Virus record (IMG/VR): IMGVR_UViG_3300046323_000570
Span: 1 to 20,709 of that record
Source: a virus
Strand: one strand, 5' to 3'
DNA: 20,709 nucleotides
The translations under genes and the position numbers were made by a program. Below are positions 15,906 to 20,709 of this stretch, piece by piece (position 1 is the stretch's first letter; every line of letters begins with the position of its first letter). A model generated the notes under the pieces. The model ran no database searches and was not told where the DNA came from. It saw nothing but the letters and a program-made list of their open reading frames with translations.

Positions 15906-16520
15906 CTACTTCAAGAGTTTGCGGCCATCCCAGATCACCACGGCCATATCGAATGGGGCCGGCGTGGTGGTCTTGCCGTCCGTGTTGACAAAACTCATGC
16001 GGCCTTTCCAGAAATCGAACACCCCCGGGAACGCCCCGAGGCGGACGGGCTCAATGTATTTGTGCCACCACCTGGTTCCAGTGCGGCTCGGGATGATCGA
16101 AACTACACAGGCCCCGCGCTGTGCTTCCTCCCAAGCCTTGGTAATGAACGCTTTGATTGCGGATCCGAATGGCGGATTCATCCATGCACACCCGCCCAAC
16201 TGAGCCAGGGCCGCGGTCCAGTTCTGGGCCAGCGCGTCCAGAGCAAGCGGGGTGTTGACCTCGATCGCGTGGCGTAGCGCTCGGGTCTTGAAGTCTGAAT
16301 CAACCTTCCAGGTGCCACGCTCGGGGCCCTTGGTGACCTTGTACCGGCCGATCTCTTCAAGCGGGGGCCCGTAGTAGGCGCGGCAGATCTCCCGCCCCGG
16401 GGTCGCGCAAACGTCCAGGGTGAGATCGTAACCGATGGCTCTGATCCCATCGATCACTGACCGGGGTGTGCCCCACTCCACCGTTGCACTGGAGGTGAAG
16501 ATATCGATTGAGTTTGTCAC
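15906..16520 (-). CDS. Phage Dam-type DNA N6-adenine methyltransferase
   Basis: The start is chosen at GTG 16520, which overlaps the upstream stop (GTGA). The open frame runs back to a TTG at 16538. The product has 204 residues. 'ATVEWGTPRSVIDGIRAIGYDLTLDVCATPGREICRAYY' (13-50) followed by 'CAWMNPPFG' (111-119) matches phage DNA N-6-adenine methyltransferases. The NPPFG catalytic motif replaces the commoner NPPY/NPPYG while keeping the NPP core. A later 'VVSIIPSRTGTRWWHKYI' is also typical. GATC as target is likely from the family name but is not proved here. GATC is abundant in this window. Confidence 0.8.
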   Translation of the reverse strand: MTNSIDIFTSSATVEWGTPRSVIDGIRAIGYDLTLDVCATPGREICRAYYGPPLEEIGRYKVTKGPERGTWKVDSDFKTRALRHAIEVNTPLALDALAQNWTAALAQLGGCAWMNPPFGSAIKAFITKAWEEAQRGACVVSIIPSRTGTRWWHKYIEPVRLGAFPGVFDFWKGRMSFVNTDGKTTTPAPFDMAVVIWDGRKLLK

Positions 16521-17182
16521 GGCCGGCACGTCCGGCAACCCCAGCCCTCACACTTACCGCAAGCCGGGGTGTAGGCGTGCTCAGGCTTCACCACCGGGTA
16601 TCCGTTGCCGGCCGTGGCGTAGTTATCCACCTCGAACTGGACCGCGGCCGGGATCGAGGCGTGGATCTTTTCCTCCCCCTTGACCTTGCTGGCTTCCACG
16701 GAGAACCCCTCAGGGTAGCGGGCCCTGAGCTTGTCCCGGTTGGCCGCGTAGATTTCTTCCACGCTCACAGGTGGGGTCAGTCCCTGGCCCAGCGTGTGGA
16801 CCAGTGCAAAGAACTCTTGACCGGCGTCCGCGGCCTCGAACGGGAACGTTGCGTGGCCCAGCTTGGAGCCGGCCTCACACAACATGTCCGCCAGATCCTC
16901 CAACGACTCGGGGATCAGATAGCGCGAGTTCATGTGTACCGCGGCACTCGGGGCACCCAGAACCTTGACCAGACAGACCACCGCGTACCAGGCGCAATCA
17001 CCCAGTTCCTTGATCATTTTCACGCGGAACTCAGGGCCCGTGCCGTGCCCGTGGCCGATCGCTTTCTTCACCAGGTCTGCCACCTCCCCAGTCTCCCCGC
17101 GAAGACCCAGAAGGAAGGTCTTGGGGGTGTTGAGGTCTGAAACCGTGCGCTGGACTTCTCTCAGGTATTCGATCGCTTCCAT
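16517..17182 (-). CDS. MazG-like nucleoside triphosphate pyrophosphohydrolase
   Basis: The product has 221 residues, with an AAAGGATCC ribosome binding site. The MazG core is 'FLLGLRGETGEVADLVKKA' with E30 and E33, then 'VKMIKELGDCAWYAVVCLV' with E59 and D62, the four acidic metal ligands of the all-alpha NTP pyrophosphatases. 'IYAANRDKLRARYPEGF' (144-160) is the usual C-terminal helix of phage MazG-like proteins. Beyond it is an extra tail ending in CGKCEGWGCRTC (C208, C211, C216, C219), a small zinc-binding knuckle. It hydrolyses a (d)NTP to the monophosphate. With the kinase and HD hydrolase this suggests control of nucleotide pools. The favoured nucleotide is unknown. Confidence 0.82.
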   Translation of the reverse strand: MEAIEYLREVQRTVSDLNTPKTFLLGLRGETGEVADLVKKAIGHGHGTGPEFRVKMIKELGDCAWYAVVCLVKVLGAPSAAVHMNSRYLIPESLEDLADMLCEAGSKLGHATFPFEAADAGQEFFALVHTLGQGLTPPVSVEEIYAANRDKLRARYPEGFSVEASKVKGEEKIHASIPAAVQFEVDNYATAGNGYPVVKPEHAYTPACGKCEGWGCRTCRP

Positions 17183-17195
17183 GATTCGGATCCTT

Positions 17196-17594
17196 TCAGG
17201 TGGGGTTGGACTTTTTGTAGCGCTTGGAGCATTTGGCGTTGCAGAAGTTACGGGCCCGGCTGGTGAGGTCTTGGGTTATCGGCTGGGCACATTGCCGGCA
17301 ATGGGTGGGCCGGTCAACCTTGGCCGCTCGGGCCGCCCTGAGTTCTTCGTTGTGGTGCTTCACCCGACACGTGTCCGAGCAAAACGATCTCAACCAACCC
17401 TTGGGCCGCCGCTCAAAGTCTTTCCCACAGCCAGGGCAGGGGATGAACTCAGAGCGCTTGAGAATACGGCCGGCCGCCGCGTTCCTCCGCTTCTGGTCTA
17501 GCTCAGCGGAACGCCAGGCCAGCGCCTCCCCAGCCGCCAGGAACCAGGTTTCCTGAAAGCCAAGGGCCTCCCGGGTCTCAACGTCCAGGTCCAT
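17196..17594 (-). CDS. Small protein with two zinc-finger pairs
   Basis: The product has 132 residues, and its start codon ATG follows directly on the polymerase stop (TAAATG). The N-terminal ~50 residues are helical. Two CxxC...CxxxC units follow: C53/C56 with C72/C76 (CPGCGKDF...FCSDTCR) and C99/C102 with C118/C122 (CRQCAQPI...FCNAKCS). The pattern matches treble-clef or zinc-ribbon modules that often bind DNA or RNA. The C-terminus is basic. It is expressed straight after the polymerase, so a role in replication or recombination is plausible but not established. Confidence 0.65.
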   Translation of the reverse strand: MDLDVETREALGFQETWFLAAGEALAWRSAELDQKRRNAAAGRILKRSEFIPCPGCGKDFERRPKGWLRSFCSDTCRVKHHNEELRAARAAKVDRPTHCRQCAQPITQDLTSRARNFCNAKCSKRYKKSNPT

Positions 17595-19979
17595 TTACGC
17601 GGCCTCAGGCATCGGTTCCCATGGGGAAAGGATCCCGTTGCGCTTGCACTCAGGGCATTGCTTGCGGTTCGGCTTGCCGTCCTCACCCGTGAAGGGGATC
17701 CAGCCTTGGCCGCCGCACGGCTTGCAGTTCGGATCTAAATAGAATTCCTCCGCTTCCTTGTACCAAGCGCGCATGAGGGCGGGAGCAATGCCGATCGCAA
17801 CGTCCGGGCAAATGATCCCCATTGCCTTTTTCATGAGGACGGTTTGACGGGCCGCGGCAAGGTGGGCCGTGGGCCGTGGCATGAGCGTAATAATTTCGTC
17901 ATGCGCGTGGATGATCGGCCGGCACCCGAACAGAGCGGTTCCACGATCCACGTAGCACTCACGCGAGACCATACACAGCGCGAGTTTGGATCCGTATCCA
18001 CCAAGGTGTTGGAAGGGCTGGTTACACGCCTCGGACACGTTGAGGCCACCTCGCATGTAGCCGGTCCCGGGGGTGATCATGACCGCTTCACCGTCCTGGA
18101 TACCGTCCAAGGCGTCCACATAAGCGAAGTAATCCTCAAGCTCCCAGGTCTCCAGCCACCCCTTTTTCAATTCGTCCGAGACCTCCACACACTGGAGGCA
18201 GATCGGATCAATGGGGCGCTTCCACCAGGTGGAGATCTTTTCCTTCCCACAACCTTGGGGGGACTCGCGACCCATGAGCCGGCACATGGAACCGTGGCCA
18301 CCGATCTTGGCCCTCCGCTGAGTGAGCGCGAACTTAGGCGCACCCATCCGGCCACCAAAACCAAAGTTGCCGGCCTTGGTGCCTTGACGGATCATCACAT
18401 AGAAAGCCTTGGTGGACGGATCCTTAAGGCCGGCCATGAATTGCTCATAAGTGATCCCGAGCATCCGGGCCCCAAGGATCACGTGTGGATCTTTACCCGC
18501 GTTGATGGCGTCAACGATCGGGCTCCGGCCGCACACCCACAGTTGAGCTTGACCCAGGTTGGCGAACTCCAGGGCGTTCCAATCGTTGGAACACATGACC
18601 CACTCAAACCCGAGGGAGGGCCGATCGTCCGGGGCAATGATGCACTCCCGAGCGCCACCCTTGCGGGGGAAGGTCTGGAGCAAGCCGGGGGCTGAGTCGT
18701 CCCCGTCCTCTTGCTTGCCGAAAGAGGTTCGAGCCGTGGCAACCAACACGTTGCTTTGCACGTTGATCGGGTAAACGATCCCATCCACCAGGAAGGGGAT
18801 GAACGTGTCACGTAGCTTGCGGTTGGTGGAGGCCCTCAGGTCGCTGAGGTCCTGATCGCCTGACTGAGTGCAAGCGTCACGATCAGCGCACACCCCCTGG
18901 ATCCCTGACTCACCACCCTTGGTCAGAGGGGCGTCCCCGGGGTTCAGGCCCGTGGCTGAACACGGCTTGCACTGGACGGGGTTGCGCTCCCCTTTTGCGT
19001 TTGGCTTGCCCAGCGCCTTGCCAGAGCCCCCACACTCAGAACACGGTACGTCCTCACGGCCCGGGTTGTAGGCACGAATGATCCGCCGCTTGATCTCAAT
19101 CCCGTTGTCTTTCCCGTCCGGTTTGAGCAACCCGGTTTGCACGAACCTGGCGATCTCTTTCTCGTGGACGGCCTCCACCCGAGTGATCAGCCGCTTGAGC
19201 GGTTCCACACCCACGCGCAACCCCCACGCGCTCAGGAGGTGGAGACACCAGCCGGCATAGGCGTTGAGGCCCATGTGAGTCAAAAGGATCTCTTTCTCAG
19301 ACCCTTCCCACTTGACCGTTACGCCCTCCCATTGCTCGGGTGGCTTGCTGGGGATCACCCGGATCAACGGCCCCAGGTTCTGGAAGTTCTGGATCTGAAA
19401 GGCCGCGTTGTCCCACGTGTTCCTGGCGTCGTCCTTGGGATACTGGATCGCTTGCTCGGGCCAGTTCTCCATGGGGACGGGCTCCAGTTCCCCGTAGCGC
19501 TTGCGATAAAGATCGTTTTCCTTGGCCGGCCGCTGGAGGTTTTGCCACGTCACCAGTTCGAGGCCGTAACGCTTTTTCACCTGACCGTTGGGGTGAGCCA
19601 CGTTGGCTGGAAGCCGCATCGGGCCACCGTCCGGGGCCGTGAAGATATGACCGCGGCTCACGTGGTCCAGGGCCTGAGCGATCAGCACGTCAAAGAACCC
19701 CATTCGATCGTAATGCTCGAACACCCGCGGCAAGAGTTCGGGCCGCTCAGCACAGGCCACCGCGTTGTCATAGGCCGAATGGGCCCCAGCAATCACGGTG
19801 TCAGGGTTCAGGTTGCTGGCGTAGGTGTCCAGGCCCGTGGCCTTGCCTTCCAGCTTGGCGTTGATCCCCTCATTCCACGCGGTGGAGTGATCCGCAAAGG
19901 ACGCGCACACACCACGGGGGACGTAGTGGCCCGGCGTGCTGAGCCATGTTTCAGTGTCGAAAGCGATCAGCTTGGACAT
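17595..19979 (-). CDS. DNA polymerase I family (family A) with 3'-5' exonuclease
   Basis: The product has 794 residues. The proofreading domain is at the N-terminus, with ExoI 'IAFDTET' (D8, E10), ExoII 'HSAYD' (D71) and ExoIII 'YPKDD' (Y180, D184). The polymerase domain carries motif A 'MCSNDWNALEF' (D466), motif B 'RQGTKAGNFGFGGRMG' (531-546) and motif C 'HAHDE' (691-695). The active-site residues are intact. Three unusual cysteine clusters interrupt it: 313-344 (CSECGGSG...CKPCSATG, DnaJ-like), 566-597 (C566, C577, C594, C597) and 752-778 (CKPCGGQG...CPEC). No 5'-3' exonuclease domain is present, as is common in phages. Its ribosome binding site lies inside the upstream tRNA. The small zinc-finger gene follows without a gap. 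Confidence 0.9.
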   Translation of the reverse strand: MSKLIAFDTETWLSTPGHYVPRGVCASFADHSTAWNEGINAKLEGKATGLDTYASNLNPDTVIAGAHSAYDNAVACAERPELLPRVFEHYDRMGFFDVLIAQALDHVSRGHIFTAPDGGPMRLPANVAHPNGQVKKRYGLELVTWQNLQRPAKENDLYRKRYGELEPVPMENWPEQAIQYPKDDARNTWDNAAFQIQNFQNLGPLIRVIPSKPPEQWEGVTVKWEGSEKEILLTHMGLNAYAGWCLHLLSAWGLRVGVEPLKRLITRVEAVHEKEIARFVQTGLLKPDGKDNGIEIKRRIIRAYNPGREDVPCSECGGSGKALGKPNAKGERNPVQCKPCSATGLNPGDAPLTKGGESGIQGVCADRDACTQSGDQDLSDLRASTNRKLRDTFIPFLVDGIVYPINVQSNVLVATARTSFGKQEDGDDSAPGLLQTFPRKGGARECIIAPDDRPSLGFEWVMCSNDWNALEFANLGQAQLWVCGRSPIVDAINAGKDPHVILGARMLGITYEQFMAGLKDPSTKAFYVMIRQGTKAGNFGFGGRMGAPKFALTQRRAKIGGHGSMCRLMGRESPQGCGKEKISTWWKRPIDPICLQCVEVSDELKKGWLETWELEDYFAYVDALDGIQDGEAVMITPGTGYMRGGLNVSEACNQPFQHLGGYGSKLALCMVSRECYVDRGTALFGCRPIIHAHDEIITLMPRPTAHLAAARQTVLMKKAMGIICPDVAIGIAPALMRAWYKEAEEFYLDPNCKPCGGQGWIPFTGEDGKPNRKQCPECKRNGILSPWEPMPEAA

Positions 19980-19981
19980 AA

Positions 19982-20053
19982 CAACCCCTCTTGGATTCGA
20001 ACCAAGGTAGCCGGCTTCAAAGGCCGGAGTCCTAGCCGCTGGACGAAAGGGTT
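19982..20053 (-). tRNA. tRNA-Gln (anticodon TTG)
   Basis: The 72-nt cloverleaf folds on the - strand. The acceptor pairs AACCCTT with AGGGGTT (7 bp, one G-U). The D arm is GTCC/GGAC with an 8-nt loop containing GG. The anticodon stem is CCGGC/GCCGG with loop CTTTGAA, placing TTG at 34-36. The variable region is CTAC, and the T arm is CTTGG/CCAAG with loop TTCGAAT. The discriminator base is G73 and CCA is not encoded. G73 and the TTG anticodon suit glutamine. The gene ends 2 nt before the polymerase start codon. It could supplement CAA decoding, which the phage uses regularly. Confidence 0.9.
19985..19991 (-). promoter_or_regulatory. Ribosome binding site of the polymerase inside the tRNA acceptor strand
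   Basis: Read on the - strand, AGAGGGG lies 5 nt before the polymerase ATG (spacer TTGTT), an ideal position for a Shine-Dalgarno sequence. The same bases form the last base of the T-stem and the 3' acceptor strand of tRNA-Gln. In the folded or mature tRNA they are paired or cleaved away. Confidence 0.75.
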
Positions 20054-20149
20054 AAAGATCGGTGGTTTTCAGAGTAACAGCCTGTGGGGGCCTCGGGGTT
20101 AGCGGGCCATGTCACAGTGTGTTCGTTTCCCCGAAATTTACTGGCTCCT

Positions 20150-20200
20150 GTGGTTGACCACCAACCACCCGGGCCCAGCGCTCTAGATCACTGGGCCCGG
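20150..20200 (-). terminator. Two adjoining hairpins after the right-edge gene
   Basis: A 10-bp perfect stem (CCGGGCCCAG at 20169-20178 with CTGGGCCCGG at 20191-20200, 12-nt loop) abuts, with no gap, a 7-bp stem (GTGGTTG at 20150-20156 with CAACCAC at 20162-20168, 5-nt loop). They follow the stop of the right-edge gene by 13 nt. No U tract follows, so a terminator is likely but not certain, and an RNA-processing barrier is possible. The remainder of 20054-20213 contains no gene that could be supported and no promoter that could be assigned. Confidence 0.5.
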
Positions 20201-20213
20201 TTATGTGTTTCGA

Positions 20214-20709
20214 TCAGGTGGCCTTGGGCTGGAGCATGGCCCGAACCGCGGCCCGCTCAGAGGGCGTCTGAGCCAAGTGATCCCAGTTGCAGCGGATCCC
20301 CGGCTTGCCCGCGTTCTTCCCCGTCTTGGTGAGGCTTCTGCGTGTGGTGAGCGCGAGGAAGCGACCTTGCAGCGGGTTGGCCAGCCCGGTGGCCTTCCAG
20401 GTCGGGTTGCCCCCAGGGACTTCCACGTTGTCCGAAAGCCACTTGCTCAGGTTTTCGTCATTGATCTGATCGTGCTTGAGCCCGAGATCCGCCGCGGCCA
20501 GTTCCTTGACGTTGGCCGGGCCCATTTGCGAGTTGAGATCCACCACCATGGAGCAATCTGAGCCCACAGTGTTGGGGGTGGTGACCGGCGTGTGATTCTT
20601 ATCGCCAACCGGGAGGATGAATTCAGGAGGAACGTCCACGGGAGCCGCGGAGACCACGAAGAACTCAGCGATGAACCAGACTTCAGGCCCCTTTTTGTCG
20701 CTGGGCTTG
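20214..20709 (-). CDS. Phage protein, possibly ssDNA-binding type (5' end outside window)
   Basis: The frame is open to the window edge, so the N-terminus is missing. The last ~165 residues are present, and a GTG at 20657 is only an internal codon. The visible start 'KPSDKKGPEVWFIAEFFVV' followed by a beta-rich stretch with 'GSDCSMVVDLNSQMGPANVKELAAADLG' resembles phage OB-fold-like proteins that act as ssDNA-binding or replication accessory factors. That match is from appearance only. The C-terminal part includes 'LQGRFLALTTRRSLTKTGKNAG', a strand plus basic patch, and 'NWDHLAQTPSERAAVRAML'. It lies upstream of the tRNA and polymerase in the same direction, consistent with a replication role. 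Confidence 0.45.
   Translation of the reverse strand, partial: KPSDKKGPEVWFIAEFFVVSAAPVDVPPEFILPVGDKNHTPVTTPNTVGSDCSMVVDLNSQMGPANVKELAAADLGLKHDQINDENLSKWLSDNVEVPGGNPTWKATGLANPLQGRFLALTTRRSLTKTGKNAGKPGIRCNWDHLAQTPSERAAVRAMLQPKAT

Follow-up and report, generated by a model that had tools for sequence, protein, structure and literature searches.

The window, by which we mean the whole stretch of DNA analysed, is a 20,709-base record from an uncultured virus, and it carries on its minus strand a tRNA gene lying directly before a DNA polymerase gene. The tRNA gene (19982-20053) was called by ARAGORN as tRNA-Gln (ttg) at 19981-20054 on the minus strand and matches the Rfam family RF00005 at 19982-20053 of the same strand with 58.9 bits, against a gathering score of 29. 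The complete tRNA-Gln that an earlier interpretation made from the sequence alone (the sequence-only reading) had placed here is thus predicted within 19970-20060 by both methods. The match covers model positions 1-71 completely, and the full cloverleaf places the sequence among the tRNAs. Its acceptor stem pairs AACCCUU (5′ strand AACCCTT, 20047-20053) with AGGGGUU (3′ strand AGGGGTT, 19983-19989) and is followed by the discriminator G at 19982; the anticodon loop is CUUUGAA, with the anticodon TTG at 20018-20020, and CCA is not encoded. The anticodon UUG and the discriminator G that a glutamine-charged tRNA would need are present.

The polymerase gene (17595-19979, minus strand; 794 aa) matches PHROG 17 (DNA polymerase; E 3.6e-14), and the annotated polymerase of MW202816 aligns with 93% of its product by tblastn; a Pfam search of the open reading frame gave no match. 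Its N-terminus, MSKLIAFDTET, aligns with those of polymerases on three related viral contigs (MPTLIAFDTET in L035, MPTSIAFDLET in L110 and MYAHRFSLDAET in L005), and in all four the exonuclease motif, FDTET in the window, stands 6-8 residues after the start. This agreement among homologues fixes the polymerase start at the ATG at 19979-19977, two nucleotides past the tRNA. A start further downstream was considered and dropped, as it would cut the FDTET motif and lose catalytic residues; there is no in-frame start upstream of the ATG, and the reading frame begins past the tRNA rather than enclosing it. The window polymerase also contains zinc-knuckle-like pairs: CSECGGSG..CKPCSATG, which relatives have as well, and CKPCGGQG..CPEC close to the C-terminus.

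Both neighbouring genes lie on the minus strand as well. A MazG-like gene (16517-17182) is found downstream of the polymerase, as it is in L005, while the gene upstream (20214-20708), incomplete at the window end, has a counterpart with 37% identity at the same position in L005. Right behind the stop codon of the upstream gene lies a strong inverted repeat (CCGGGCCCAG..CTGGGCCCGG, 20169-20200); it has no T-run and may separate that gene from the tRNA-polymerase unit. No intrinsic terminator was seen on the relevant strand. The 160-nt leader between the upstream gene and the tRNA contains a conserved non-coding element, TATCGGGC..GAGCAT..CCCGCTAGGCCCGAGG, at 20086-20148 (minus strand), which recurs upstream of the tRNA or polymerase in L110 (2513-2574) and L035 (2910-2971). 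It was delineated by alignment, motif search and a covariance model that matches these sequences by construction. Its stem reads TCGGGG/CCCCGA in the window and TCGGGC/GCCCGA in L110 and L035, one pair having changed on both sides. Rfam families gave no match to the element, and its exact pattern was found in the viral collection only in the L110 and L035 contigs. In L035, the element sits within a stem of about 16 pairs (2890-2998; fold z-score -3.5); between this stem and the polymerase ATG there are 6 nt and no Shine-Dalgarno (SD) sequence.

The junction itself is compact. Two bases, TT (19980-19981), separate the discriminator from the ATG, and the 3′ side of the tRNA, across the T-stem and acceptor strand, reads AGAGGGG (19985-19991). 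The sequence-only reading took this strand for the only good ribosome binding site of the polymerase, and this part of it is borne out: the arrangement is GGGG-TTGTT-ATG, a spacing of 5 nt (7 nt counted from GAGG), and the predicted SD duplex of -7.9 kcal/mol is among the strongest in the window. SD use is general in this phage: 64% of predicted gene starts lie at or below -4.5, compared with 15% for shuffled upstream sequences. The strand is also paired in the folded tRNA, as had been proposed, with a mean unpaired probability of 0.085 for AGAGGGG in the whole tRNA; opening it would cost 7.7 kcal/mol, approximately what the SD duplex repays.

From this geometry the sequence-only reading drew an either-or switch, in which the acceptor 3′ strand is a working SD and each transcript yields a tRNA or a translated polymerase, thereby balancing translation against replication. 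The tRNA, the 2-nt gap, the SD-like strand and its pairing all stand; the switch drawn from them fails comparison with relatives. It would suit the well-spaced, strong and hidden SD of an SD-using phage, and a similar either-or idea has been proposed for a tRNA-Sec gene nested in selB (PMC8124441). Against it, the SD in this position is not shared by relatives, and neither a controlling signal nor an alternative open structure came to light. Matches to an SD of this quality also occur at about 5% of phage tRNA 3′ ends (4.8% of 230 CCA-less phage tRNAs), so that a single match beside an ATG gives no strong argument for design. Given abutment, an SD-like match is only mildly unusual. The SD-like acceptor strand of the window is specific to its lineage and probably incidental; a switch private to this lineage is possible, and the switch as a whole is improbable.

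A second promoter within the tRNA gene offers another way to free the SD, by producing a polymerase mRNA with a short leader from which the 5′ acceptor strand is missing. The unpaired probability of the SD would indeed rise from 0.085 to about 0.4-0.5 in such 5′-truncated transcripts. However, a search for sigma-70-type promoters found none in 17400-20709, and the leader element, which L110 and L035 also have, suggests that the transcript begins further upstream, leaving an internal promoter a quite unlikely source of the polymerase message.

Relatives were obtained by profile searches of viral contigs. A blastn search with the junction region found nothing in the phage collection, i.e. no near DNA relatives, and neither a single-sequence polymerase scan of viral contigs nor an alignment scan of bacterial genomes for the polymerase returned a relative. 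The exact junction pattern proved too strict for this purpose; a looser tRNA-Gln pattern matched 17 contigs, with a polymerase behind the tRNA only in L018 (the same contig as L005). The tRNA-Gln of phage Philippe is similar in sequence but is followed by a gap of about 800 nt and not by a polymerase, and was set aside. In the polymerase phylogeny, L035 (41% identity to the window polymerase) branches first, followed by L005 (47%) and then by the window and L110 (51%) as sisters, with support of 100/99 for the clade and 98/97 for its three inner members.

All three inner members carry a tRNA-Gln(UUG) right upstream of the polymerase, yet each presents a different initiation signal at a different spacing. 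In L005 the tRNA ends CGCGCCT-G and is followed by T and the ATG, a gap of 1 nt with no SD in or after the tRNA, compared with 2 nt and an SD-like strand within the tRNA in the window. In L110, TTCAGGAGCAACGCCC stands between the tRNA and a TTG start, a gap of 16 nt that contains a free AGGAG outside the tRNA; since this SD lies between tRNA and start, both products would be possible from one transcript. An SD hidden in the tRNA is thus confined to the window among these same-arrangement relatives, which argues against the switch as a conserved device. Nor does the relative without the tRNA keep the same upstream bases as a ribosome binding site, an outcome that the sequence-only reading had named as refuting it: L035 has neither tRNA nor SD, and its polymerase ATG lies 6 nt past the long stem. 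Judged from these comparisons, the tRNA-Gln/polymerase junction is old and has been kept, and the ribosome-binding arrangement is different in each phage.

Further variants occur in the wider surroundings of this clade. In the distant relatives L080 and L086, a tRNA-Gln(UUG) is followed by a short open reading frame and then by the polymerase. Upstream of related polymerases in L051 (2193-2426) and L101 (2487-2768), homologous small proteins (70% identity) start directly behind predicted tRNAs (Ala and Met respectively), the former weak, with no Rfam match in the L051 contig. Upstream of the tRNA-Gln in L005, at about 2613-2701, lies a sequence resembling a tRNA, whose ends pair (GGTCGCT/AGCGACC) and which contains a T-arm-like CTCGGTTCGACTCCGAG; it is called by neither ARAGORN nor Rfam.

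How common such junctions are was surveyed by running ARAGORN over the whole of the viral DNA retrieved, with tRNAs selected by pattern search excluded. Abutment was defined as an ATG-initiated open reading frame of at least 60 aa starting at -2 to +3 of the called tRNA end, and the expectation was taken from the rate at +4 to +79. Among CCA-less phage tRNAs, 20 of 222 abut such a reading frame against 5.4 expected, a count that includes the window and L005 and at least two reading frames that look spurious (one reads through following tRNAs and one shares its stop with another), in a sample partly biased by the many contigs that came from the tRNA-Gln pattern search or polymerase kinship. Tallied separately, CCA-encoding tRNAs abut at the expected rate (2/157 against 1.9). 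Thirteen of the 20 abutting frames share a single offset, corresponding to two bases past the discriminator in the window, and an ATG of any kind occurs there 25 times compared with about 3.8 times per offset further downstream. Real genes are found in this position, including those for a glutamine synthetase-like protein (behind tRNA-Lys), endonuclease VII (tRNA-Arg) and a nucleoside deoxyribosyltransferase-like protein (tRNA-Pro), and most abutting genes in the survey have no SD. The butt-joint of tRNA and ATG is therefore recurrent in other phages. The glutamine synthetase-like gene lies on a phage contig (L195, 6640-7788; Pfam Gln-synt_C, E 1.2e-14). It is one of several genes, on L184, L186, L194, L195 and L149, that start 1-3 nt past a CCA-less tRNA, mostly without an SD; about five of these junctions lie on L184 alone. 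The literature searched contains no description of the tRNA-polymerase butt-joint arrangement in phages.

We tentatively propose, at a probability of about 0.45, that the locus is a compact tRNA-mRNA junction at which maturation of the tRNA 3′ end would yield a polymerase message whose leader is 1-2 nt long. A CCA-less tRNA-Gln gene in the 5′ leader of the polymerase gene would form with it a butt-jointed unit, with leader, tRNA and polymerase presumably borne on one transcript. RNase P and an RNase Z-type enzyme would excise the tRNA. With a cut behind the discriminator, the polymerase mRNA of the window would begin UU-AUG and that of L005 U-AUG, and the L110 message would retain a leader containing its SD; the two short forms would then be translated as near-leaderless messages. 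The SD-like strand of the window might add initiation on unprocessed or unfolded transcripts. In Bacillus subtilis, a uracil no more than two bases from the discriminator raises the cutting of CCA-less tRNAs by RNase Z about 200-fold (PMC10100781). This context is present in the window, L005 and L110, none of which encodes CCA in the tRNA and all of which have U directly behind the discriminator (UU, UA and UU respectively). Leaders shorter than 10 nt are classed as leaderless, a type of message that is common in Streptomyces and mycobacteria and rare in Escherichia coli (PMC4681348, PMC4633059). The predicted processing site lies within that distance of the start codon in the window (2 nt) and L005 (1 nt), and 16 nt away in L110, which has its own SD. 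Processing need not silence the polymerase through loss of the SD, as the sequence-only reading had supposed: the 2-nt-leader message that it is predicted to leave would belong to the leaderless class, so the tRNA and the polymerase are not necessarily alternatives.

Further evidence for this processing model comes from the retention of the junction in the window, L005 and L110 while the SD is in the tRNA, absent and after the tRNA respectively, and the excess of abutment at one offset, seen for CCA-less tRNAs only. Against it, the phage clearly uses SDs and that of the polymerase is strong, so SD-dependent initiation fits too, and in the sister L110 the gap measures 16 nt and holds a free SD. 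A rival reading is plain compaction, whereby the tRNA has been put as near the polymerase start as possible, with initiation through the SD-like strand before folding or by a weak SD-independent route, and with no regulation. The variation in spacing (1, 2 and 16 nt) and in initiation signal among relatives is consistent with compaction, and phage T5 also interleaves its tRNAs with small genes at tight junctions (AY543070), though its annotated tRNA-to-CDS gaps of about 13-25 nt are wide enough to hold a free ribosome binding site like that of L110. Compaction does not predict an excess at one exact spacing limited to CCA-less tRNAs, when CCA-encoding tRNAs show none, and we regard it as possible but doubtful.

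Of known systems, mitochondrial tRNA punctuation is the closest analogue in its working. In mitochondrial transcripts, an established case cited within PMC4633059, tRNAs abut coding sequences as in the window, and a leaderless or near-leaderless mRNA starts where the tRNA has been cut off at its 3′ end. The phage differs in having SD-using genes, a single junction at the polymerase and an SD-like strand kept in the tRNA, and processing here is a prediction. The closest published bacterial idea concerns selC (tRNA-Sec) nested in selB in Alphaproteobacteria, where the tRNA overlaps translation signals and its processing is proposed to repress SelB and yield a leaderless mRNA for the next open reading frame (PMC8124441). 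There the tRNA lies inside a reading frame, whereas the window tRNA lies between genes, stops 2 nt short of the ATG and has nothing but an SD-like sequence in its overlap; it is thus not a member of the nested selB/selC class. With SD-sequestering switches, such as RNA thermometers and translational riboswitches, the window shares an SD that is paired in the default fold, but it lacks a sensor and a conserved alternative fold.

Of more interest than the switch is the recurrent tRNA-ATG butt-joint. Many phages may use a CCA-less tRNA 1-3 nt before a start codon as punctuation, with processing producing near-leaderless mRNAs and tying expression to host tRNA processing; the window polymerase would be one case and its SD-like strand an extra. 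This broader proposal is speculative and rather unlikely, but it comes down to a simple rule that can be counted across phage genomes: a CCA-less tRNA, 1-2 nt, then ATG. For gene finders, the warning is that the start codon of a gene may directly adjoin a tRNA and have no usable SD. Should the polymerase message be made by tRNA 3′ processing, these phages would need a host RNase Z-type activity to replicate, and a mitochondrial-style route to leaderless mRNAs would be operating in phages.
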